A DNA stretch of 36,713 nt, from positions 1 to 36,713 of the forward strand of contig NZ_JACBXB010000004.1 of NCBI RefSeq assembly GCF_013870575.1. The letters are read 5' to 3'. The position numbers and the translations under genes are program-made. Source of the stretch: Pseudonocardia pini. GTDB lineage: Bacteria; Actinomycetota; Actinomycetes; Mycobacteriales; Pseudonocardiaceae. The notes under the pieces were generated by a model. It was not told the origin of the DNA and did not search any database. It saw only the letters and a program-made list of their open reading frames with translations. How positions within the stretch are numbered: position 1 is the first letter of the stretch; each line of letters starts with the position of its first letter. Below, in pieces: positions 2,003 to 24,262 of the stretch.

Positions 2003-2599
2003 TCAGCTCTCCGAGGGGGTGGGGGTGACGCAACGGGTCCCGGTGCGTCCGTCGGGGTAGAGGTAGGACTCGGCGGTCTGACCGGACGGGCAAACCGGGC
2101 CGGGCTCCCCGGGCGGGCCCTGCGGACCAGGCGGCCCCGCAAGCCCCGGAGCACCGTCCTGGCCGTCGCTGCCGTCCTGCCCAGCGCTCCCGATGGATCC
2201 AGGTGCCCCCGGCGCGCCGGGCGCGCCAGCAGGCCCCGCAGGACCAGCCACACCCGGAGCGCCCGGCGTGCCCGGCAACCCGGCCGGGCCAGGCTCGCCC
2301 CGCGCACCAGGGATCGGCTCGACCTGCACCTGCACCGCCTTTGAACAGACCGCCGAGTACCGCTCCGGGATCTGCCCCGACGAACACGCCCGCCCGATCT
2401 CCGCCGCCAGGTCCAGCGCCTGATACGCGGTCGCGTCACGCTGCTCCACCGCAACCGACGCCGCCGTCTGCGCATCCGACGCCGAGCTCTGCGCCTCCGT
2501 CGTCTGCCGGGCCACCAACACCCCAGCAGCCACCGTGCCCAACGCGAGCAGCACGAACAGCCCGATCAGCCACCGCGGCAGCGGCTTGCGGTCACGCAC
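2003..2599 (-). CDS. Membrane-anchored collagen-like protein, 198 aa
   Basis: The GTG start at 2599 is chosen because it overlaps the previous stop (TGA at 2592-2594) by 8 bases and gives an N-terminus of typical form. Residues about 9-31 ([20 protein letters not shown]) form one membrane span preceded by basic residues. Residues about 32-100 are a helical Gln/Ala/Ser-rich stalk with two Cys. Then come 24 uninterrupted Gly-X-Y triplets rich in GAP, GPA and GQD, and a tail with two more Cys. Collagen-like repeats are common in phage fibres, but a membrane anchor is unusual for a virion fibre. The protein may instead sit in the cell membrane during lysis or lysogeny. The longer 331-codon frame looks like a shadow over the preceding gene. 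Confidence 0.75.
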
Positions 2600-2840
2600 G
2601 ATGCGTCCCCCCGGTCGTCGGCGCGGGCGGAGCCGCCGGGCCCTCGTCGTCCTCGTCATCCAGGACCGCGGGCCGAGGCGGGACCGGGAGGCCCCGCTCA
2701 GCGAGCTCGGACTCCAGCCGGAAGATGTGCGCGAGAGCGGCGAGAAGTCGCCGCTGAACAGCTCGGGAGTGCCGGGCGTCCATCCCGATCCGCCGGGACC
2801 GGGTGCCGATGAGGCCACCGACCGCGCCGAGGAGGAGCAC
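2592..2840 (-). CDS. Small membrane protein near tail genes, possibly lysis-related, 82 aa
   Basis: The first standard start is GTG at 2840, but the frame is open further upstream and reads [13 protein letters not shown] just before it. The natural protein may begin there at a non-standard codon, or the upstream bases may have changed. One hydrophobic segment ([16 protein letters not shown]) is followed by a basic stretch and a helical region ([20 protein letters not shown]), ending in an acidic Pro-rich tail. This build is frequent in small actinophage proteins near lysis or tail-tip genes. Its role is unknown; a holin accessory or membrane tether is possible. It overlaps the collagen-like gene by 8 bases. 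Confidence 0.55.
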
Positions 2841-2913
2841 CAGGCCGCCGAAGATCGAGTTGAGCAGCTCGGGACTGATGGCGCACCTGCCTGGATCGTG
2901 CCGGTCGTGGTCG

Positions 2914-3183
2914 TCATGAGGCAGCGGCCCCGAAACGGCGGGCGATCACCGAGACACACCAGGCCGCGGCGAGCACGATCCCGACGCCGAGCGCCCACGT
3001 GCGCCAGGTGAGCGGCTGGCCGATCGAGTCGAGCTGCCCGGACACCGACACGACCGCCATGGCGAGGACGGCGAGGTAGCCGAGGACGTCATGATCCCGC
3101 CAGCGGACCGCGCAGCCGAGAGCGAGCGCGGCCAGCAGGGCGGCCAGACCGGCGATCAGGTAGCGGACGACGTCGGGGTTCAC
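2914..3183 (-). CDS. Small three-span membrane protein, holin-like, 89 aa
   Basis: GTG at 3183 is chosen because it forms a GTGA overlap with the stop of the upstream fibre gene. The sequence shows three likely membrane spans: [32 protein letters not shown] and [19 protein letters not shown], with a short charged loop (RWRDHD) between the first two. Size and topology fit a class I holin or a holin-associated protein, but no specific family is recognised. A second holin-like gene is present at 21747-22094, so this one may be an accessory or have another membrane role. About 70 bases separate it from the next gene. Confidence 0.65.
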
Positions 3184-3899
3184 GTCGCCACCAGGGCCGC
3201 GTTGAACCGCACCCACCCCTTCCCCAACGTCCCGTCCGGGCCGGGCTCGAGGTTCCGGGCAGAGCCGGAGCCCTGCCACACCTGCACGAAGACGACCGCG
3301 TCAGCGTCGAACCAGCGGGTCACGGCCACGTTGTTCGTGATCGCCCCGTTCGCCGCGGTGCCGGGACCCTGGGCGGCGAGAGCATCCCCGTTGCCGAGGT
3401 GGATGCCGGTGTACCGCTCGCCCGCGCTGCCGCCCGTGGCGAACCGCACCGTCGTCGACAGCGTCCACAGCCCGGAGGTGCCCAGCTTGAACTGGTGGCC
3501 GGCGCCGCGGGACTCCCGCGTGACGGACGTCGTCGTCGAGTCCGCCGTGGCGAACAGGACCGGGGTGTTCGTGGCCGCCGGGATCGACTGGGCCGCGGCC
3601 GCCGAGTACTGCGCCCACGCCCCACCGGTCCCGCCACCCCCACCGCCGCCGCCACCGCCGGAGGCGAGGAGGTCACCGGACCAGGAGTCGCCGTCCCACA
3701 GCCGGAACGCGCCCGAGTCGGTCTCCCGGATCAGGAATCCGTCATCCCCCGCCCCGAGTGCGGGCCGGGCGGTCGACAGGCAGGGGTAGGCCCGCCACAG
3801 CCGGGCGTCCACGGTCCCGGCCAGGGCGGCGATCTGCGCGGGCCCGTTCGGCTCGTCCGTTAGCTCCGGGGACGTCAGGCCCCACCTCGTGGTGCCCAT
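3180..3899 (-). CDS. Minor tail or fibre protein with Gly-rich hinge and jelly-roll-like C-terminus
   Basis: 239 aa from ATG at 3899, which overlaps the previous stop as TGATG. The N-terminal 75 residues (including ALGAGDDGFLIRETDSGAFRLW) resemble a fibre shaft or attachment segment. A run of ten Gly residues with GTGG follows at about 81-94. The C-terminal 140 residues are beta-rich, with a pattern (YTGIHLGNGD, VFVQVWQGSGSARNL) like C1q/TNF-type trimeric heads found on phage fibres. Family knowledge suggests receptor binding; the assignment rests on pattern rather than a signature motif. The next gene overlaps by four bases. Confidence 0.7.
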   Translation of the reverse strand: MGTTRWGLTSPELTDEPNGPAQIAALAGTVDARLWRAYPCLSTARPALGAGDDGFLIRETDSGAFRLWDGDSWSGDLLASGGGGGGGGGGTGGAWAQYSAAAAQSIPAATNTPVLFATADSTTTSVTRESRGAGHQFKLGTSGLWTLSTTVRFATGGSAGERYTGIHLGNGDALAAQGPGTAANGAITNNVAVTRWFDADAVVFVQVWQGSGSARNLEPGPDGTLGKGWVRFNAALVAT

Positions 3900-15372: not shown

Positions 15373-15960
15373 TCACAACAGGGCCAGATCGAGCGCGTGA
15401 GCGTCCGCGCGAGCGCGCGCCTGCGCGTCCGCGTCCTCCGCTGCCGAGCGCACACCGGTCACCACGGCCTCACGGCCGTACGCGCCCTGCATGACGAGCG
15501 CGACCTCGAACAGCCCCGCACGGTGGCGGACCACAATCCCGTCCCCCCGCCTGCGCGAGCCGCCAGGAAGCGCCCGGAAGCCGACGCTCAACTCGTCGAG
15601 GACACCCTCACGCGCCAGCTCCAGCGCCTCGTCCCCCGCGGGGGTCTTCGCCACGCGCAGCGCGGTGTACAGCCCGGAAGCGTCCTCGCGCAGCTCGACG
15701 GCCTTGCCGATCACCGCGCCGCCCAGCTTGTGGTGCTCGCGGGACAGGTGCACGCGGTAGTTCGGCGGCCGGCCCGGGGCGGCGGCGCGATGCGCGGTCA
15801 TGAGCTGGTCGGCGAACGCGCCCGCCTCGAACATCTCGGTCAGGTGCTCGTCGATCATCTGCGGCACGCCGTAGGGGACGGCGATGCCCTCGATCGTCCG
15901 GCCGTCACCGCTACTGCGGAGCTCCAGCCCGGCAGCGGAGCGGTACAGGGTCTCACTCAC
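15373..15960 (-). CDS. Prohead protease, HK97 (U35) family, 195 aa
   Basis: The GTG start at 15960 overlaps the previous gene by 8 bases. Visible hallmarks: an N-terminal strand (GRTIEGIAVPYGVPQ), His71 in YRVHLSREHH, and Ser125 in DELSVGFRAL, the catalytic His and Ser of this serine protease family. It cuts the N-terminal scaffold region of the major capsid protein during maturation. The gene lies just before the capsid gene, separated by 150 bases containing hairpins. The C-terminus ends in an Ala/Asp/Arg-rich tail (EDADAQARARADAHALDL). Confidence 0.9.
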   Translation of the reverse strand: MSETLYRSAAGLELRSSGDGRTIEGIAVPYGVPQMIDEHLTEMFEAGAFADQLMTAHRAAAPGRPPNYRVHLSREHHKLGGAVIGKAVELREDASGLYTALRVAKTPAGDEALELAREGVLDELSVGFRALPGGSRRRGDGIVVRHRAGLFEVALVMQGAYGREAVVTGVRSAAEDADAQARARADAHALDLALL

Positions 15961-16159
15961 TGGAGGCGACCTCCTCGAGCTTCGGGTCTGCGTCGCCGCG
16001 GCGGGACGCCCAGTGCGCGGGGCACAGGCCGCGGGTGAGGCCGATGCTCTCGCCGATCTCCTGCTGGCCGGTCTTGGTGCAGCCCTCGATCTTGCACACG
16101 GCGGGGGCGTCGTCCTCGGCGGCGTGGCGGGCGCGGGGGCTGGGCTTGTCGGCGGTCAT
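15953..16159 (-). CDS. Small Cys/His zinc-binding-type protein, 68 aa
   Basis: ATG at 16159 overlaps the endolysin stop as ATGA. The motif CKIEGCTKTGQQEIGESIGL followed by CPAHW has the spacing of a small zinc-binding finger (C-x4-C, then C-x2-H). Short proteins of this type occur in actinophage head regions without known function. The ends are charged and look disordered. It overlaps the protease gene by 8 bases, so it is co-translated with it. Whether it binds DNA, the capsid or the host is unknown. Confidence 0.65.
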   Translation of the reverse strand: MTADKPSPRARHAAEDDAPAVCKIEGCTKTGQQEIGESIGLTRGLCPAHWASRRGDADPKLEEVASSE

Positions 16160-16893
16160 GCGGCACTCCTCGGGATGGCCGCGATCATCGCGGCGGCGAG
16201 CTGGGCGTAGTCGATCTGGACAGCGGACAGCGGGTTCGTCCCGGTGAGCTCGGCGCGCATCGCTCGGACCTCCTCACGGAGCGCCCGGACCTCTTCGCGG
16301 GCTTCGGTGGCGCGGTCGCGGGCGTTCGCGGCATGCGCGGTGCCCCACGCCATGCAGTCCCACGCCTGCATCGGGCGCCGGTCCTCCCGGTAGTAGTCGG
16401 GCACCGGGGCCCGCCAAAAGTCGTCGACGGTCGGCATGGACACCTCCGGGAGAGCGGGGATGGTCGGGGCGGCGGTGGAGATCCCCCACGCGCCCACGTC
16501 GTCGAACCCGGCGGGGTTCGTGGTGAAGCTCACGTGCACGTGCTTGGTGTGCGGGTTGGTGCCGGTGTAGCGCCGCCAGCCCGAGAAGTCGGGAGTGGTG
16601 ATCCGCTCGTTGAAGATCACGTAGCCGCCGGGGTACAGCCGCCGGTCGCGCTTCGCCCCGAGCAGGCGGAGGTGCTCGGCCAGCCAGGCGGCGTCGATGC
16701 CGTCCACGTCGATGTCGCGGGCTCGCACCACGCCGGTGCCGGCGACGACGATGGACGGATTATGGTCCGACGTCCGTGAGGCGTGCGCCGCGTCACCAAT
16801 GGTTCCGTCAGACGTCTTGTCGCGATTCGGCCAACGCGAATTGACCTCGCTGACCAGCGACAGGCTCGCTTCACAATTGCGCCACGCTGGCAT
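16156..16893 (-). CDS. Endolysin, M15-type peptidase with C-terminal coiled coil
   Basis: 245 aa. Residues 1-130 carry the metallopeptidase pattern: SDHNPS with His44, RARDID with Asp60, and HTKHVHVSF with His118 and His120 as zinc-binding and catalytic residues. This peptidase would cut peptide bonds in peptidoglycan. Residues about 175-225 form a coiled coil (ATEAREEVRALREEVRAMRA), perhaps for dimerisation or wall binding. The first 47 codons (16753-16893) use AT-richer codons than the rest and are a diverged copy of the interrupted start at 17364-17486. The gene is therefore a mosaic rebuilt by the HNH element. Its ATG overlaps an upstream in-frame stop as TGATG. Confidence 0.85.
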   Translation of the reverse strand: MPAWRNCEASLSLVSEVNSRWPNRDKTSDGTIGDAAHASRTSDHNPSIVVAGTGVVRARDIDVDGIDAAWLAEHLRLLGAKRDRRLYPGGYVIFNERITTPDFSGWRRYTGTNPHTKHVHVSFTTNPAGFDDVGAWGISTAAPTIPALPEVSMPTVDDFWRAPVPDYYREDRRPMQAWDCMAWGTAHAANARDRATEAREEVRALREEVRAMRAELTGTNPLSAVQIDYAQLAAAMIAAIPRSAA

Positions 16894-16910
16894 CAGATCA
16901 TCACCCTTGG

Positions 16911-16916
16911 TATAGT
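16911..16916 (+). promoter_or_regulatory. Candidate -10 box for a leaderless HNH transcript
   Basis: TATAGT lies exactly six bases before the HNH ATG at 16923, the spacing expected when transcription starts on the A of ATG. There is no good ribosome site in front of the ATG. Leaderless mRNAs are common in actinobacteria. No clear -35 is visible. Confidence 0.4.
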
Positions 16917-16922
16917 GGTGAA

Positions 16923-17363
16923 ATGACGTGGGGAACTCCGATGGAGCGCTTCTGGCAGAAGGTTGACCGCCGCGGGGACGCCGAATGCTGGCCGTGGGTT
17001 GGTGGACGAAAGGCGGCCGGCTATGGCCAGTTCACCGTGGACGGCCACAAGGTCATCGCCCACCGGTGGTCCTACCAGCAGTTCGTCGGACCGATCCCCG
17101 CCGACTACGAGGTGGACCACACCTGCGGGAACCGGCAGTGCGTGAACCCCGCACACCTTGAGGCGGTCACGCTGGCGGAGAACCGTCGCCGCCGGAACGC
17201 GGCGAAGACGACGTGCCGCCGAGCAGGCCACCCGTACACCGAGGAGAGCACCGGGTGGCAGTGGGGCTCCGACGGGTGCTGGTCCCGCGTTTGCCTCACC
17301 TGCCGCCCGAACTACAGCCGTCACCGCGGCCTGGTCCCGCCGACGACTCCGCGAGTCGCCTGA
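16923..17363 (+). CDS. HNH homing endonuclease, free-standing, 146 aa
   Basis: The only plus-strand gene inside the minus-strand late operon. It has the HNH_3 layout: FWQKVDRRGDAECWPWVGG at residues 10-28, GYGQFTVDGHKVIAHRWSYQ, then the catalytic core DHTCGNRQCVNPAHLEAVT with Asp65-His66, Asn75 and His78. A C-terminal zinc-type finger follows (Cys97, His102, Cys123, Cys126). These enzymes cut DNA at specific sites and spread by repair. Its stop directly abuts the interrupted endolysin start, and its own start faces the restored endolysin start 30 bases away, with a probable leaderless promoter. Its likely target is the endolysin zinc-site sequence (inference). Confidence 0.9.
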   Translation: MTWGTPMERFWQKVDRRGDAECWPWVGGRKAAGYGQFTVDGHKVIAHRWSYQQFVGPIPADYEVDHTCGNRQCVNPAHLEAVTLAENRRRRNAAKTTCRRAGHPYTEESTGWQWGSDGCWSRVCLTCRPNYSRHRGLVPPTTPRVA

Positions 17364-17486
17364 CGACGTGCGGGCGGCGTGGGCGGCGTCGCCGATCGTC
17401 CCGTCGGAGGTCTTGTCCCGGCCCGGCCAGCGGGCGTTGATCTCGGCGACGAGCGCGAGGGAAGCACCGCAGTTCCGCCAGCTCAT
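17364..17486 (-). pseudogene. Native 5' end of the endolysin gene, cut off by the HNH element
   Basis: ATG at 17486 overlaps the stop of the upstream gene as ATGA, the normal coupling style of this operon, which shows that this was the original start. It encodes WRNCGASLALVAEINARWP and DKTSDGTIGDAAHAARTS, then joins HNH antisense DNA just before the zinc-site codons. The frame stays open for 197 codons through the antisense of the HNH gene and stops at 16893-16895. There the TGA overlaps the restored endolysin ATG as TGATG. It cannot make an active enzyme, but its translation may feed ribosomes to the restored start. Confidence 0.8.
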
Positions 17487-17680
17487 GCAGGCCTCCCCGA
17501 GTCCAGCGGCGCGCCCGCGGGCTCGCCCGCGTACTGCCACGGGTCGGAGTGGTCCTGCTCGCCTGCGGTCGCGGCGGGCGGGGACGGCTCGATCACCGGG
17601 AGGACGTGGGTGTCCTCGACGGTCGATCGGGGCTCGTACCTCCACCCGGACGGGTAGGAGCTGTCCTCGTACCAGGGCAT
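17483..17680 (-). CDS. Small hypothetical protein after the portal, 65 aa
   Basis: ATG at 17680 overlaps the portal stop as TGATG, and the stop overlaps the native endolysin start as ATGA. The frame has more upstream codons, but these lie inside the portal gene. The protein reads MPWYEDSSYPSGWRYEPRST, then an acidic, Pro-rich, probably disordered remainder. No domain is recognised. Its coupling on both sides supports that it is translated; the role may be structural or accessory to the portal. Confidence 0.6.
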   Translation of the reverse strand: MPWYEDSSYPSGWRYEPRSTVEDTHVLPVIEPSPPAATAGEQDHSDPWQYAGEPAGAPLDSGRPA

Positions 17681-19167
17681 CAGGCGCCGCCCTCCTCGTA
17701 CGGGGAGCGGCCGAACACGATGCGGTACCAGACCGCGGCCGTGTGCCGGGCTCGCGCGGCGGTCATGTGTCCGGTCAGGTACTCCCGCAGCGCGTCGAAC
17801 GGATCGGGCTCCGTCGCCCACAGCGCGAGGCCCTCGCCTCGGGTCCAGTACTCCCGCAGGTTCGACCCGTCGCGGTCCCGCGCCCGCTGCTCCTCGGTAG
17901 GTGCCCCCGCGCCGCTCTCGCCGTCTGGGGACGAACCGTCAGCGGGCCCAGGTGCGGGCGGCGTGGGGGCAGGCTTCAGGGCGGTCAGGTCCGCCTTCTG
18001 CTCCGGGGTGAACGGCGGCTTCCCCTCGATCTGGCGGACCTCGTCCGGGGTGGCCCACTGGTTCCGGATGGAGATCTCGTGCGCCTGGTACCGGGTGAGG
18101 GTGTCCCCGCGCATGATCGCGTCGAGGTTCGCCTCGACCTTCTGCCCGCGCGGCGTGCGCAGCGACAGGGTCTGCTCGAACCGGGTGAAATGGTCGATCA
18201 TCGAGAACTTCACGAGGTTGATCGCCTCGGTCTCGACGTTCGAGTAGGTGCGGGTCGTCTGCGCGGCGCCGAGCCACGACGGGTCCAAGTCGAACAGCAG
18301 CGCCTGCTCGACGAGCGACAGGTTCCGCGCCTCGATGAGCTGGGCGTCGTCCGGCGTCCACGCCAGCGGGGTGACCTTCGTGGCCGGGTTCAACACCATC
18401 GGCGACCGCGTCCGCTGCGACCGCATGTAGGCCTTCTTCAGGTCCGCGGCCTGCTCCGGGGTGAGGTCCGGGTTCAAGCTCTCGATCAGCACCGACGGCA
18501 CCGCGTGGTCCGCGACGCTGTTGGCCTGCTCCTGGAGCGACTTCGCGAGCTGCAACGTCCCAGCGAGGTGCGCCTCCAGGATCCCCATGCCGTACAGCGC
18601 CCCGGGCCGGGACAGGCCCTTGAAGTGGATGACCCGCGACGCCGGCCACCACTGCCCGCCAGCCCAGTACCGCACCGCGCCGACCGGCCAGCCGGGGATC
18701 CGCTCCCCCATCCGCTCGACCCCGACGAGCTCCGCGGGCACGGGCACGATGACGTCCGGGTAGCCCTCGCGGGTCCAGTCGGTGATGATCCCGATGGCGT
18801 TGCCGTGCCACATCAGGTCCAGGTGCCACGCCGAGAACGTGTCGACCTGCGTCTGCGGCGGGATCGGCTGCTCGAGGAACAGCGGCCGTGGGGTGATCTT
18901 CTCGTCGACCCCCGCGCGGGTCCGGACCACGTCCCACGGCACGGTCGCGAGCACCGCCGACTTCAGGCGGGCGGCGCGCCAGCACCCGGCGAGGCCCATC
19001 CCGCCGCGGTAGGTGGCGTCCCCGCCCCAGTCCGGGGCCATGCCGCCCTGCATGCGGACGACCTCGTGGGTGGCGGTCTGCCCGGTCTCGGTGTCGGTGG
19101 CCTCGTACACGAGGTTCCGCAGGAACTCGCGTGCCCGACCGGCGGCGAGCGCGCCGCGCGTGGGCAT
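17680..19167 (-). CDS. Portal protein, HK97 family, 495 aa
   Basis: Starts ATG at 19167, overlapping the previous gene as TGATG. Recognisable portal features: HLDLMWHGNAIGIITDW, a long central helix region (GILEAHLAGTLQLAKSLQEQ), and FDLDPSWLGAAQTTRTYSNV with ETEAINLVKFSMIDHFTRFE, typical for HK97-type portals. It forms the dodecameric ring through which DNA is packed by the terminase and to which connectors bind. The C-terminal 90 residues are Pro/Gly/Ser-rich and then helical. Order terminase, small membrane protein, portal fits. Confidence 0.92.
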   Translation of the reverse strand: MPTRGALAAGRAREFLRNLVYEATDTETGQTATHEVVRMQGGMAPDWGGDATYRGGMGLAGCWRAARLKSAVLATVPWDVVRTRAGVDEKITPRPLFLEQPIPPQTQVDTFSAWHLDLMWHGNAIGIITDWTREGYPDVIVPVPAELVGVERMGERIPGWPVGAVRYWAGGQWWPASRVIHFKGLSRPGALYGMGILEAHLAGTLQLAKSLQEQANSVADHAVPSVLIESLNPDLTPEQAADLKKAYMRSQRTRSPMVLNPATKVTPLAWTPDDAQLIEARNLSLVEQALLFDLDPSWLGAAQTTRTYSNVETEAINLVKFSMIDHFTRFEQTLSLRTPRGQKVEANLDAIMRGDTLTRYQAHEISIRNQWATPDEVRQIEGKPPFTPEQKADLTALKPAPTPPAPGPADGSSPDGESGAGAPTEEQRARDRDGSNLREYWTRGEGLALWATEPDPFDALREYLTGHMTAARARHTAAVWYRIVFGRSPYEEGGA

Positions 19168-19376: not shown

Positions 19377-20875
19377 CAGAAGATCCTCGGGATCGGGATG
19401 GGCGCGGGCGGCGGGAGCATCCGGGCCAGGTAGACCGCGCCCGCGGCGGCGTAGAGGGCGTCGACGTGCCCGGCGCCCTTCCGGAGGAACCGCCACCCGT
19501 CTCCGGTCTCGTACTTCGTGGAGCCCGCGACGTGGGCGTTCAGCAGCGGGTCGTTGGGCTGGGCGAGCTGGCGGCCCTCGACGAGCCCGGCGAGGCCCTG
19601 GCAGGCCTCCCGCTCCATCGCCCCGGCGAGGCGGGCGGCCTCCTCCTCCCACGTGTCGACCACGCGGCCGTCGACGACTTTCGCGACGTCGAGGCGGCCG
19701 GTGCGGCGGAACTGGCGGAGTTCGGGGCCGAGCTCGGCGGCCGGGCCGTTGGGGAACCAGCCGACGTCGGCGGGCCGGATCTGCTGGAGCAGCGGGACGA
19801 CCTCGGCGCGGGCGGCGGTGGTGGAGTCCCAGGCCTTCAGGATCTCGACTCGGACGCGGCCGTCGGGGAGCAGCGCGGCGCCGGCGAGGGTGGCGTGCTG
19901 GCCGTCGGGGGCGACGTCGAGGCAGACGGCGACGCGGTCCCGGTGCTGGCCGAGGGAGGTGACGGTGTCCTCGCAGGCGCGCCAGGCGGCCATGTCGATC
20001 GCGGAGTCGAGGGTCTCGACGTGCTGGCAGAGCAGCTCGGTGCGGAACACCGCGGGCGGGTCCGTCGCCTTCGCGGACAGGATCGCGGAGAGGGTGATGG
20101 TGCGGCCGAGGCCGGGGCAGGCCTGCGCGATCGCGTCGAGGTCGTCGAGGTCGCAGCCGTCCGGCGCGGACCACTCGAACAGCCCGAGCCGCTCGTCCGA
20201 CCCGGCGATGGCCGCGGCGCGCAGCGAGTTGAGCACCACGGACTGGTCGTCGCCGGCGTTCGAGATCCCGACGGTGATGGCGTTGGGGCGGGCGATGGTC
20301 GTCTTCGTGAGTGCGCCCCACGCGGCCCAGTCGCGGTGCTCGCGGAGCTCGTCGAGGACCAGGAGGTCGACGGACAGGCCACGGCCAGCGCCGCGGGTGG
20401 CCGCGGTGATGCGGTACCGGGAGCCGTCGCGGAGGGTCAGGCACTGCTCGCCGTTCGCCCGCCGGATGTTCGCGACCTCGGGGGCGAGCTCGTCGTTGTC
20501 CTCGGCCAGCTCGACGGCGCCCTGCCAGGACTCACGGGCGATGTCGAGGGACTGCGCGGCGCCGAGGACGAGCTGGGCGTGGCCCATGTACATCGCCCAC
20601 AGGGAAACGATCTTCAACAGCGTGGTTTTGCCCTGCTGACGTGCGACAAGGGTGAGAATCGTGCGGAAACGGAACGATCCGTCCGGGAGTAGCTCCAGGG
20701 CGTGGAGGAGCCAGAACCGCTGCCACGGGAGCAGCTCGACCCCGAGGATCTCGGTGGCGAACCGGATGGCCTGGTACCCGAGTGTGGTGTCGGGGGTTAG
20801 GTCGCGGAGGGGGCGGGTCCAGAGCCGCGGCTCCTCCTTGCCCATGACCTCCGGGGCGTCCAGCAGCGCCGTCAC
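19376..20875 (-). CDS. Terminase large subunit, 499 aa
   Basis: GTG at 20875 overlaps the previous stop as GTGA. The ATPase has a Walker A-type ARQQGKTT at residues 78-85 and Walker B LLVLDE at 171-176. A nuclease-type Asp320 lies in VAVCLD and a further acidic site in GHVDALYAA near the C-terminus. It pumps phage DNA into proheads through the portal and cuts the concatemer. The HNH protein at 22468-22740 is probably its packaging partner. Length and domain order match actinophage large terminases. Confidence 0.93.
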   Translation of the reverse strand: MTALLDAPEVMGKEEPRLWTRPLRDLTPDTTLGYQAIRFATEILGVELLPWQRFWLLHALELLPDGSFRFRTILTLVARQQGKTTLLKIVSLWAMYMGHAQLVLGAAQSLDIARESWQGAVELAEDNDELAPEVANIRRANGEQCLTLRDGSRYRITAATRGAGRGLSVDLLVLDELREHRDWAAWGALTKTTIARPNAITVGISNAGDDQSVVLNSLRAAAIAGSDERLGLFEWSAPDGCDLDDLDAIAQACPGLGRTITLSAILSAKATDPPAVFRTELLCQHVETLDSAIDMAAWRACEDTVTSLGQHRDRVAVCLDVAPDGQHATLAGAALLPDGRVRVEILKAWDSTTAARAEVVPLLQQIRPADVGWFPNGPAAELGPELRQFRRTGRLDVAKVVDGRVVDTWEEEAARLAGAMEREACQGLAGLVEGRQLAQPNDPLLNAHVAGSTKYETGDGWRFLRKGAGHVDALYAAAGAVYLARMLPPPAPIPIPRIF

Positions 20876-21051
20876 GAGGTCGGCTCCGCCCGGACGACCG
20901 CGAGGACCTCGCAGCGGACCAGCAGGGCCACGTTGACGCCCGGCATCAGGTCGGCGAGGTGCGACTTCAGCGCCTCGGCCTGCTTACGGCTGGTGTCGTC
21001 AGCGAGCTGGATCAGGACGGTGTCGCCGGGGCGGGCCACGTAGCCGTTCAC
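20872..21051 (-). CDS. Small hypothetical protein between terminase genes, 59 aa
   Basis: GTG at 21051 overlaps the upstream stop as GTGA, and its own stop overlaps the terminase start as GTGA, so a much longer frame to 21201 is not needed. Sequence: MNGYVARPGDTVLIQLADDT followed by a helix (SRKQAEALKSHLADLMPGVN) and a hydrophobic strand (VALLVRCEVLAVVRAEPTS). The small alpha/beta pattern could bind protein or nucleic acid. No family is recognised. Confidence 0.65.
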   Translation of the reverse strand: MNGYVARPGDTVLIQLADDTSRKQAEALKSHLADLMPGVNVALLVRCEVLAVVRAEPTS

Positions 21052-21137
21052 CGCTGAACCGCCTCGGCCACGAGGATCACGCCCAGGACGATGAGCACCG
21101 CGGACGCGGCCAGGGCGTCGAGCACGAGCTGCCTCAC
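21048..21137 (-). CDS. Tiny single-span membrane protein, 29 aa
   Basis: GTG at 21137 overlaps the small terminase stop as GTGA, and TGA at 21048-21050 overlaps the next gene's GTG as GTGA. The protein has a short basic/polar start (MRQLVLDALAA), one clear membrane span (SAVLIVLGVILVAEA) and a VQR end. The double coupling is the main evidence, since so short a frame could arise by chance. It may be a small membrane regulator or lysis accessory protein. Confidence 0.6.
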   Translation of the reverse strand: MRQLVLDALAASAVLIVLGVILVAEAVQR

Positions 21138-21532
21138 GCCCCCGCACCCCCGCGGAGCCCCATGAGCCGGGACGGGCCAGCGGAGGGCTTCCCCGCCCCA
21201 CCGCTGGAACCCGCGGCCCGCGCCTTCGGGGTGGCCTTCAGCTCGACCAGCGCCGTCGTCAACCGGGCGCCGATCTTGTCGATGGTGTCGCGCTCGTTCA
21301 GCTTCGCCCGCAGCGCCGCCACGATCTCCATCAGCGCCCCCTCGTCGTCCTCGGACGCGGCGAGACGGGCCGCACGGTCCGCCATCGCCGCCGTGGCCGA
21401 GGCCCGGTCGATCTGGCGTGCGTACAGCCGGGCCAGCTCCACGAGGCCCTGGTCGGTCTTCTCGGGGTCGAGGGCCGCGATCGTCTCCTCGACGGCGTCC
21501 AGCAGGGACCGGCGCCCCTCGCGCTCGGTCAC
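21134..21532 (-). CDS. Terminase small subunit-like, 132 aa
   Basis: GTG at 21532 overlaps the upstream stop as GTGA. The protein is helical: RRSLLDAVEETIAALDPEKT, LVELARLYARQIDRASATAA, a coiled middle and a basic, Gly-rich C-terminus (AAGSSGGAGKPSAGPSRLMG). Such short helical proteins with QGLVELARLYARQID-type segments are the DNA-binding small terminases of actinophages. They recognise the packaging site and load the large subunit. The gene lies just before the large terminase cluster, as expected. Confidence 0.75.
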   Translation of the reverse strand: MTEREGRRSLLDAVEETIAALDPEKTDQGLVELARLYARQIDRASATAAMADRAARLAASEDDEGALMEIVAALRAKLNERDTIDKIGARLTTALVELKATPKARAAGSSGGAGKPSAGPSRLMGLRGGAGA

Positions 21533-22740: not shown

Positions 22741-22885
22741 GACGCTCGACCAGCGCGCAGGCGTGGGCGTACGCCTCACGCCAGGTCGGCCAGTACGTGA
22801 GCACGTCGCTGAGCCACGCCTGGCCCACGTCGACAACGCACCACATCCCGGTCGACGAGATGCGGCCTACCTGCGGCTTGGTCAC
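22721..22885 (-). CDS. Small hypothetical protein, 54 aa
   Basis: GTG at 22885 overlaps the VRR-NUC stop as GTGA. The sequence begins MTKPQVGRISSTGMWCVVDV and continues QAWLSDVLTYWPTWREAYAH, ending ALVERRARQQG, a small alpha/beta pattern rich in Trp and Tyr. No known domain. It overlaps the HNH gene by 20 bases. Translation is supported by coupling. It may be a partner of the nucleases around it, but nothing visible proves this. Confidence 0.6.
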   Translation of the reverse strand: MTKPQVGRISSTGMWCVVDVGQAWLSDVLTYWPTWREAYAHACALVERRARQQG

Positions 22886-23202
22886 GGGGTCCTCCTGAGT
22901 CGGGCGAGGATTGCGGGTCGGTCGGCTGGCCGCCAGACGGTGGCGTGCTGTCCGAGGTGGTCGAGCCAGGTGCGTTGGTCTGGCCGGAGTTGGCCGCGGT
23001 CGGTCTTCAGCTCGACGAGCAGGACGTCGCCGTCTCGGGCGAGGAGCAGGTCCGGGCTGCCGATGTGGCCCTGAACGGCCGTGCGCCAGCCCGCGGCGGT
23101 GCGGGCTGGCCGGAAGTGCGCGACGCGCCAGCCGTGGAGCTGGGCGGCCTGGATGACCCACTCGGCGAAGGCGGCTTCGGACTCGGCGGGGCGGGTCACC
23201 AT
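22882..23202 (-). CDS. VRR-NUC domain nuclease, 106 aa
   Basis: ATG at 23202 is used; a GTG three bases downstream (23199) overlaps the previous stop as GTGA and could also serve. The motif order is E-A-AFAEWVIQAAQLHGWRVA, then GSPDLLLARDGDVLLVELKT with the catalytic Asp and ExK-type site (PD-(D/E)XK family), and QRTWLDHLGQHATVWRP. Small VRR-NUC proteins of phages process DNA junctions during replication or recombination. It lies among the recombination genes of this module. Confidence 0.8.
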   Translation of the reverse strand: MVTRPAESEAAFAEWVIQAAQLHGWRVAHFRPARTAAGWRTAVQGHIGSPDLLLARDGDVLLVELKTDRGQLRPDQRTWLDHLGQHATVWRPADRPAILARLRRTP

Positions 23203-23438
23203 CGGCGGAACTCGCGGTCGGGGTCGTGCGCGAGCTCGCGGGGGTCGAGCGGGGCGTGGATGACCCCGGCGGCGTCGAGCCGGGCCGGGTGGGCCGGGAG
23301 GTTGGCGAGCGGCTCCCGCTCGCCAACCATGGACTCCCGCGTGCACGGCTGGCCAGCAGGCTCGCCGCAGCCCTTCGGCGGGAACGGGCAGGGCACGGTG
23401 AGCGCCTGCTGCCGGTCCTGCTCCAGCTCGGGGGTCAC
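23196..23438 (-). CDS. Small Cys-rich zinc-binding-type protein, 80 aa
   Basis: GTG at 23438 overlaps the replication gene stop as GTGA. The motif CPFPPKGCGEPAGQPCT has three Cys with zinc-ligand spacing and is followed by LANLPAHPARLDAAGVIHAP. Proteins with this C-x6-GC-x6-C plus HPARL pattern are common, small and unassigned in actinophages. Placed between the replication protein and the VRR-NUC gene, it is probably an accessory nucleic-acid-binding protein (inference). Confidence 0.65.
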   Translation of the reverse strand: MTPELEQDRQQALTVPCPFPPKGCGEPAGQPCTRESMVGEREPLANLPAHPARLDAAGVIHAPLDPRELAHDPDREFRRW

Positions 23439-24262
23439 GTGCCCACCGCACGGAGGTGCGGGGCGTGGTCACAGCGCGCGGAGCGGCCGTCCGGGAGGTC
23501 CCGCATGCCGCGCTCGTCGCACTGCCCGCAGGCGTCGACGGCGGCCCGGAACGCGGCCCGCTGGGCTTCCTTCGGGTCGACCGGCGTCGAGGCTTCCAGG
23601 GACAGCCGGACGTCGCGGCAGGCCCGGCAGTTCGGGCCCGGGTCTCCGGCAGGGATGTCGCGGTGGCGGCCGCAGCGCGGGTTGACCGGGTCGAGCCGGG
23701 GGGCGGGGGGCTCGTGCGCGTTCGAGTCAGGAACCCCCCCGCCCCAAGTCTCTCCTGAAGGGGACGGGCCGGGACGGGCCGGGACGGGCCGGGACGCCTG
23801 CGCAGGCGTACGCGCGCCCGTGAGTACATCCTCCGTTACTAACGGCGTTGGTAACGCGTTACCGAACCTGTTACCGCCCGGAGGGGTCGGCGGGGCCTCG
23901 TCGGGAGCCTGTTGCGGGTTTCGCCTGGTCCGGTGCTTAGCGACCCGCTTGCGGGTCTCCTCCCGGCGGGCCTCGACGTCCGCCCGCGTCGGGTTCGAGT
24001 CGGCCCAATCGTGGAACCGGTAGCCGCGCTCCCCCTGCTCGGTCGCTGCTTCCCACAAGCCAGCCGCCTGCAACTTACCCGCGAGTAGCTCGCGCGAATC
24101 GTGTCGACGGACGACCTCGGACGGCACGAACCCGTCAGTCAGGTTGCGCGCCGCCCACGCCCCGCACAGCGTCCAGAGGCCCATCGCGGCCACCCGCTGA
24201 CGGCCGAGGGCACGCACCTTCCGGTGCTCCGGGAGCCCGTCGTCGACCTTGAACCACGCCAT
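23435..24262 (-). CDS. Replication initiator-like protein with winged-helix N-terminus, 275 aa
   Basis: ATG at 24262 overlaps the previous stop as TGATG. The N-terminal 100 residues (MAWFKVDDGLPEHRKVRALG, MGLWTLCGAWAARNLTDGFV) match the helix-turn-helix replication proteins seen in actinophages. Next come RADVEARREETRKRVAKHRT, a Pro/Gly-rich linker and a C-terminal part with CGRHRDIPAGDPGPNCRACR and CGQCDER, two Cys clusters probably binding zinc. The linker-coding DNA carries repeats and palindromes resembling an origin. Lambda O has its origin in the same relative place in its own gene. Its partner may be host helicase-loading machinery. Confidence 0.7.
   Translation of the reverse strand: MAWFKVDDGLPEHRKVRALGRQRVAAMGLWTLCGAWAARNLTDGFVPSEVVRRHDSRELLAGKLQAAGLWEAATEQGERGYRFHDWADSNPTRADVEARREETRKRVAKHRTRRNPQQAPDEAPPTPPGGNRFGNALPTPLVTEDVLTGARTPAQASRPVPARPGPSPSGETWGGGVPDSNAHEPPAPRLDPVNPRCGRHRDIPAGDPGPNCRACRDVRLSLEASTPVDPKEAQRAAFRAAVDACGQCDERGMRDLPDGRSARCDHAPHLRAVGT
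23761..23877. other. Candidate phage replication origin inside the replication gene
   Basis: Seen: a 10-base unit repeated three times exactly (gggacgggcc, 23761-23790) and a perfect 14-base palindrome at 23795-23808. Beyond them, in 23835-23875, four copies of GTTACC/GTTACT occur in both orientations, including the perfect palindrome GGTAACGCGTTACC at 23850-23863. This stretch is less GC-rich than its surroundings. Inference: iteron-type binding sites for the initiator encoded by the same gene, as in lambda O. Confidence 0.5.

Follow-up and report, generated by a model that had tools for sequence, protein, structure and literature searches.

The window, a 36,713-nucleotide stretch of a draft genome of Pseudonocardia pini (1246 contigs), holds a phage head module made up of terminase, portal, an endolysin-like gene, prohead protease and major capsid protein. 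The endolysin-like gene is complete, and an HNH endonuclease gene lies between it and a fragment of its own 5' end. The locus comprises the following features.

17483..17680, minus strand: small upstream ORF of 65 aa, its stop codon sharing bases with the native start
17364..17486, minus strand: 41-codon stub that keeps the native 5' end of the endolysin-like gene; it is coupled to the upstream ORF through ATGA, and its GC3 (39/41) resembles that of the gene body
16923..17363, plus strand: HNH endonuclease gene of the HNH_3 family, 146 aa (PF13392, 1.4e-15; phrog_826, 2.5e-43)
16887..16916, plus strand: promoter-like site CTGGCA-18-TATAGT ahead of the HNH gene, from a promoter-site scan
16759..16893, minus strand: recoded, apparently foreign 5' end of about 45 codons that rebuilds the endolysin-like gene (GC3 0.71 in its first 42 codons versus 0.93-0.94 downstream)
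16759..16770, minus strand: probable junction of the foreign 5' end and the native body, beside the D-H-N-P codons, placed by composition and by the end of the stub match; the presumed homing site, where a cut would fall
16156..16893, minus strand: rebuilt, chimeric endolysin-like gene, 245 aa, a probable peptidoglycan metallopeptidase (peptidoglycan-binding domains in some family members)

Inspection of the stub places the native ATG at 17486-17484, where it overlaps the TGA of the upstream ORF as ATGA. The stub ends in ...AARTS after 41 codons, and the match to the lysin stops at 17363, where the HNH stop codon (TGA, 17361-17363) has its final base. An earlier note on this DNA had described the coupled start, the run of 41 codons to RTS and a match ending at the HNH stop, all of which the coordinates bear out. 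It had also seen a second start that re-encodes the same 5' end in AT-richer codons, and this too holds: 33/41 residues of the stub are identical in the rebuilt protein, with one residue inserted after Met, and GC3 is 30/42 in the rebuilt end versus 39/41 in the stub. Of the 39 codons that align, 19 differ synonymously, 8 differ nonsynonymously and 12 do not differ, leaving the two copies 69% identical in DNA (81/117 nt). The HNH gene scores 57.1 bits against Pfam HNH_3 PF13392 (cutoff 24.8); it is a free-standing gene of its own, outside any intron or intein, and adjoins its presumed target. The promoter-like site is the sole one in 15900-17700 (mean of shuffles, 0.0), beginning inside the start of the rebuilt gene and ending 6 nt before the HNH ATG, a position from which leaderless expression of the HNH gene is likely.

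The rebuilt gene was analyzed for a change in composition along its length. Its first 42 codons have a GC3 of 30/42 and those past codon 47 one of 186/198, and the best changepoint falls at codon 45, at the DHNP motif, with none of 2000 shuffles giving one as strong. Among 11 other minus-strand ORFs, some of which are possibly not real genes, a comparable 5' drop is absent from 10 and present in one (20872-21201, 0.57 versus 0.90), so a GC3-poor 5' end is not proof by itself. The frame that begins at 17486 stays open for 197 codons, up to a TGA that overlaps the rebuilt ATG (TGATG), exactly as the earlier note had reported. This antisense frame is in register with the HNH codons and is therefore open unless the HNH gene uses TTA, CTA or TCA; given the codon usage of the 11 minus-strand ORFs, the chance of an open frame is about 0.58. 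That is to say, the open frame across the HNH gene is mostly chance, and the idea that translational coupling is kept through it finds no support beyond that.

The lysin-like protein of the window matches a single PHROG, whose function is unknown, and has no match among Pfam families (E 0.001) or NCBIfam families (E 0.1). An AlphaFold model (mean pLDDT 75) gave no PDB fold match in a fold search. A peptidoglycan-binding domain (PG_binding_1) was matched by 6 of the 13 family members scanned (E up to 0.1, best 1.6e-18), and the family alignment reveals S42, H44, P46, A58, D60, H118 and H120 to be invariant or nearly so. We take H44, D60, H118 and H120 to be zinc residues, and the protein is likely a peptidoglycan metallopeptidase. 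The name endolysin, first given to it from the letters alone, is thus likely apt as far as the domain in its relatives goes, and has no counterpart among Pfam families or PDB folds. The gene lies between portal and prohead protease, an odd spot for a lysis gene, and a virion role for its product is possible. In Actinoplanes phage phiAsp2 a relative spans two annotated genes, Pas66 and Pas65 (AY576796.1:53500-53901), for which the record notes putative translational coupling.

The best relatives of the window gene are about 64-72% identical to it, with no close empty-site allele among them. Judged by protein end, 41 of the 61 testable relatives are nearer the rebuilt end, 17 are nearer the stub and 3 are ties; L328-L330 also count, by this resemblance, against a native stub. 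Since there is no close empty-site allele and the relatives lean to the rebuilt end, the view that the stub is native in the window rests on composition. Among 60 near genomes, the window's own included, just one other has a match, a weak one, and the best of 397 genomes of the order reaches 66%. A single lysin copy is present in 16 viral and 48 genomic relatives, with at most about 4 kb examined per side.

To learn how common this build is, HNH loci were surveyed for fragments left and right of the HNH core that share a strand and code for the same end of a gene. Loci came from five HNH queries in IMG/VR, target-gene scans, one lysin-family genome scan and genome searches, together with 20 hand-picked regions of named phages. 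This yielded 259 distinct HNH ORFs, 249 with enough flank for testing. A strict rule demanded that both copies lie on the same strand within 450 nt of the core, that they represent the same gene end and that the complete copy continue as a long frame. Under this rule 14/249 HNH ORFs pass versus 3/564 control ORFs (p=1.3e-5), where the measurement differs slightly in that control cores are ORFs less 30 nt per end and HNH cores are profile envelopes. Dropping the gene-end rule gives 21/249 versus 11/564, and a first look had given 12/169 HNH ORFs versus 5/374 other ORFs of the same loci. A first scan with the window HNH as sole query passed 5/77, the window included, and the named phages contribute one case among 19 HNH ORFs tested. 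The resulting rate of about 5% is rough because some later HNH queries were themselves cases. The earlier note had suggested looking for other HNH genes between split and rebuilt gene ends; such genes exist, in excess over controls. The same geometry is seen at many genes, and the build of the window is not unique.

The 14 strict passes include the window itself and L359, and L099 counts twice. L359 was rejected as a paralogue, having paralogous frames that matched as a control too; L174, an HNH-HNH pair, and L169, with a partial repeat, are the other two control passes. Two passes, L039 and L099 plus, are bare ones (E 0.004). Among further candidates, L049 proved to hold a repeated zinc finger in the HNH, and L371, L118, L206, L179 and L349 were discarded on inspection by eye. 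Streptomyces phage Rusticus (L321:1019-4353) was likewise rejected, having repeated intergenic motifs instead: a short motif recurs in several copies between small genes. L184, L054 and L348 are probably cases too, but they fail the strict rule and stay outside the count, and L056 and L355 are too short for judgement.

Curation left 13 cases. The 5' end is affected in the window endolysin-like gene, a VRR-NUC nuclease (L099), a DNA methylase (L191), a gene with a weak winged-helix match (L194), a DUF7227 protein (L227), the lysin B of Gordonia phage Malisha (L320) and the unnamed genes of L039 (short and weak), L353, L426 and L361. The 3' end is affected in the VRR-NUC gene of L099 again (E 0.004), a terminase (L178) and an unnamed gene (L083). 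At L099 (2914-4410) the VRR-NUC gene has apparently been struck at both ends by two related HNH genes, one per strand and each with a stub. Four comparisons with its two nearest relatives, over stretches too short to lean on, favour the stub in three and slightly favour the rebuilt end in one (L284, 3' end). At L191 (2103-4331), sub-cutoff Pfam matches suggest that the rebuilt DNA methylase also holds an intein with a LAGLIDADG domain, which would place two kinds of homing element in one gene.

Composition was compared across the curated cases. GC3 of the rebuilt end is below that of the stub in 12/13 and below that of the gene body in 11/13 (Wilcoxon p about 0.001 each), and stub and body show no average difference (p=0.64; 13 cases). 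GC3 of the HNH gene is below that of the body in 12/13 and above that of the rebuilt end in 10/13 (p=0.08). In general, then, the stub has a native look and the attached end a foreign one. Two cases, L178 and L083, depart from this in the body comparison; in these, body GC3 goes with the rebuilt end and not with the stub; in L178 the values are 1.00 for the stub, 0.56 for the rebuilt end and 0.50 for the body, and the donor tract there may cover much of the gene. The HNH gene is on the strand of its target in 9/13 cases and on the opposite strand in 4/13. All 8 of the same-strand 5' cases have a candidate rebuilt start no further downstream than the HNH stop (in three of them as ATGA; the start in L353 and in L099 is uncertain), so coupling looks direct in these cases.

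Two loci allow comparison with alleles that lack the insertion. Malisha gp29 is annotated as an HNH endonuclease, and its first 27 codons are those of a lysin B start; gp30, after the HNH gene, is the full lysin B with a recoded 5' end. At this locus the annotations of phages Spooky, Periwinkle and Ecliptus list one lysin B gene apiece. Malisha 3201-3840 is identical to Spooky 2378-3017 (L325) at 640/640 nt, lysin B codons 1-27 included, and by this match Spooky can be taken to show the empty-site allele for the Malisha insertion. Over the 69 nt before the break, the three uninterrupted genes are mutually identical at 62-66 positions, and Malisha gp30 matches them at 45-47. Against Spooky alone, gp30 matches at 46/69 nt before the break and at 72/78 just after it. 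The two phages are 99.5% identical over 3,017 nt upstream of the break and about 84% identical further downstream. On these identities the Malisha junction is also a wider mosaic boundary, and a longer donor tract or another mosaic exchange is present too.

At the terminase, L253, with no HNH match in the stretch examined, aligns with L178 on both sides of the insertion and matches its stub at 68/84 nt and its rebuilt end at 53/84. These alignments clearly mark the L178 stub as the recipient end; the source of the new end is marked less clearly. The nearest sequence to the last 84 nt of the rebuilt end is L254 (60/84), which also has no HNH match in the stretch examined, and the HNH-bearing L256 reaches 49/84. 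In the 60 nt before the terminase end the order of closeness to L178 is L256 (47/60), L254 (36/60) and L253 (32/60). L256 aligns with L178 through the terminase end and the HNH gene and shows no stub. The differing histories of the two parts of the complete gene are apparent by composition in the window and by sequence in Malisha, and are less clear in L178.

We consider the locus to be probably the product of a gene-end-replacing homing event driven by the HNH enzyme, with the old end left behind as a stub, as in the WHO elements of yeast. With two related phages in one cell, the HNH enzyme would cut an uninterrupted target gene, and repair would copy in the HNH gene along with a diverged target end (in the window, codons 1 to about 45 of the endolysin-like gene). 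The gene body would thereby be joined to a new end that is functional and presumably uncut, and the recipient's own end would be left beyond the HNH gene as a non-functional stub. Cleavage at the zinc-site codons, with the recoded end immune, is plausible. The HNH gene and the diverged end would probably go on to move as one lasting unit, for which the stub could be the second homology arm in the next transfer: a donor with a stub would present homology on both sides of the unit, so that clean insertion at a single point may be possible. The earlier proposal that the HNH gene arrived with a diverged 5' end that restored the gene is supported by the GC3 breakpoint, by the recurring class of loci and by the two insertion-free comparisons (Malisha with Spooky, L178 with L253).

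The earlier note knew of no described element with this build, yet its design is common to two groups of elements outside phages that use other nucleases. According to the accessible part of their description, the WHO elements of Torulaspora and Lachancea home into FBA1, replace its 3' end each time and leave fragments (Coughlan 2020, PMC7282813). As in the present loci, an endonuclease gene, sometimes in the opposite orientation, adjoins a target whose end has been swapped for a diverged one, and the old end lies beyond the nuclease gene. The complete WHO target likewise consists of two parts with different histories, which meet at the cut site, a site that is presumed in the phage loci. The described WHO nuclease is HO/intein-related with a zinc finger, acts on yeast chromosomes at mainly one target, FBA1, and at its 3' end, and its cleavage has been shown; in contrast, the phage loci have an HNH_3 nuclease and many targets and are affected at the 5' or the 3' end. 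We assume the WHO nuclease to be of the LAGLIDADG class. The second group consists of fungal mitochondrial mobile ORFs with carboxy-terminal duplication, reported for Allomyces atp6 and for Glomus atp6, atp9, cox2 and nad3 (PMC3630166, in the portions available). Here too an endonuclease ORF sits in a gene, a foreign end restores the gene and the native end is left, the two ends being much diverged in DNA; unlike the phage cases, these ORFs are LAGLIDADG or GIY-YIG, mitochondrial and confined in that account to the C-terminal end.

Among phages, the nearest system is the ShiLan domain, an HNH insertion in mycobacteriophage methylases (PMC11855218), which we infer to be a possible minimal relative of the present class. 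The available text of that study reports that residues 1-11 of the insert are similar to the 11 residues that follow it, and that the start of the insert is closer to uninvaded genes (75.9%) than to invaded ones (69.5%). ShiLan thus shares an HNH inserted in an actinophage gene and end sequence that recurs across the insert; it differs in that its HNH is out of frame within a continuous methylase frame and that 11 codons recur, with no whole end rebuilt. Free-standing phage homing endonucleases, T4 seg/mob and others, are likewise nuclease genes outside introns that are moved by recombination, and include the split-gene cases mobE and mobA (PMC2988022, PMC10448857). In the accessible accounts these T4-type systems split or flank genes without the pairing of stub and rebuilt end, and the consulted parts of PMC10448857, PMC12724721 and PMC13096335 describe no such pairing. 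A search of the open-access literature, a scope outside which most subscription papers fall, found no description of it in phages. That an unrelated nuclease seems to follow this logic in phages points to a general solution.

The closest competitor is a narrower version of the homing event, counted within its odds: a free-standing HNH gene beside a related endolysin was copied by one-sided repair into the cut gene in a single episode, leaving a stub as a scar and no lasting mobile unit of HNH gene and gene end. One-sided illegitimate repair with microhomology junctions is known from T4 intron homing, according to the part of PMC2988022 that was available. The HNH gene of L256 beside a terminase without a stub and the L178 rebuilt end, whose nearest relative has no HNH match, would both fit such an episode. 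Against it, the HNH gene and the rebuilt end seem to travel together, because both are below gene-body GC3 in most cases and because in the 8 same-strand 5' cases the HNH stop overlaps a candidate rebuilt start. We regard the single-scar version as rather unlikely, though a serious contender.

Ordinary mosaicism, in which illegitimate recombination brought in a divergent 5' end with a passenger HNH gene that played no part, we judge distinctly improbable. Phage genomes are mosaic, the Malisha junction sits on a wider boundary (99.5% upstream versus about 84% downstream) and the body composition of L178 follows its rebuilt end, all of which this explanation would accommodate. Against it, gene-end duplications are enriched beside HNH genes (14/249 versus 3/564), the same geometry is seen at many genes, and Malisha gp30 differs from its relatives most strongly ahead of the break (46/69 nt matched there, 72/78 after it).

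A duplicated gene, or a pair of endolysin genes around the HNH gene of which the short one decayed, is very improbable. The protein ends of 41/61 relatives, nearer the rebuilt copy, speak in its favour; against that, the rebuilt gene itself switches composition where the stub ends, and the 16 viral and 48 genomic relatives examined over at most about 4 kb per side have a single copy. The earlier note had named two separate endolysins flanking an unrelated HNH gene as the finding that would overturn its reading, and the composition switch and the other cases make that arrangement unlikely. An assembly artefact is scarcely credible: the window case is a single assembly from a draft of 1246 contigs, and the one further copy found, IMG/VR 2915358134 (L003), lies entirely within the window without a difference and is not an independent assembly, but the two gene ends are just 69% identical and the same build occurs in the complete genome of Malisha and in terminase contigs L251 and L252 from two metagenomes. 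HNH enzymes are often intron-encoded, yet a group I intron or intein carrying the HNH gene is the least credible account of all, as the HNH gene is on the opposite strand, the target gene is complete without splicing, and neither the window nor the six case loci searched had an Rfam match at the gathering threshold.

Beyond the single locus, the homing reading extends to a broader proposal that we favour on balance, with restrained confidence: phages would carry a widespread third homing-element architecture, 'home-and-rescue' drives, in which an HNH gene and a recoded target end form one non-splicing unit. Such units would act at either end of many genes, account for about 5% of the HNH family and steadily chimerise phage genes. 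A selfish nuclease could then enter a needed gene without splicing if it carried an immune replacement for the part that it breaks. The genomic footprint for finding such elements is simple, consisting of a stub, a nuclease gene and a recoded end, and it may help explain why nuclease genes lie at boundaries of phage exchange, a claim made in the title of PMC10448857. Caution in annotation would also be due, as homing scars would account for some of the short ORFs annotated in phages and for some gene ends that evolve oddly. Malisha and Spooky, both on Gordonia terrae 3612, offer a lab-ready pair.

Several observations lie beside this argument. At L054 (1932-3456) a possible two-gene cassette, consisting of an HNH gene and a 279-aa gene without a Pfam match, separates a glycosyltransferase-like gene with a rebuilt 3' end from its stub. 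In Mycobacterium phages Mantra (L451:2615-2971) and Filuzino (L452:2603-2965), an annotated HNH gene shares 4 nt with the beginning of a DNA methyltransferase gene, possibly a donor-like arrangement; the HNH profile found no match in these two phages and missed the annotated HNH genes as well. Within the window, the minus-strand ORF at 22882-23829 has a nuclease/resolvase-like end (phrog_93, phrog_5702).
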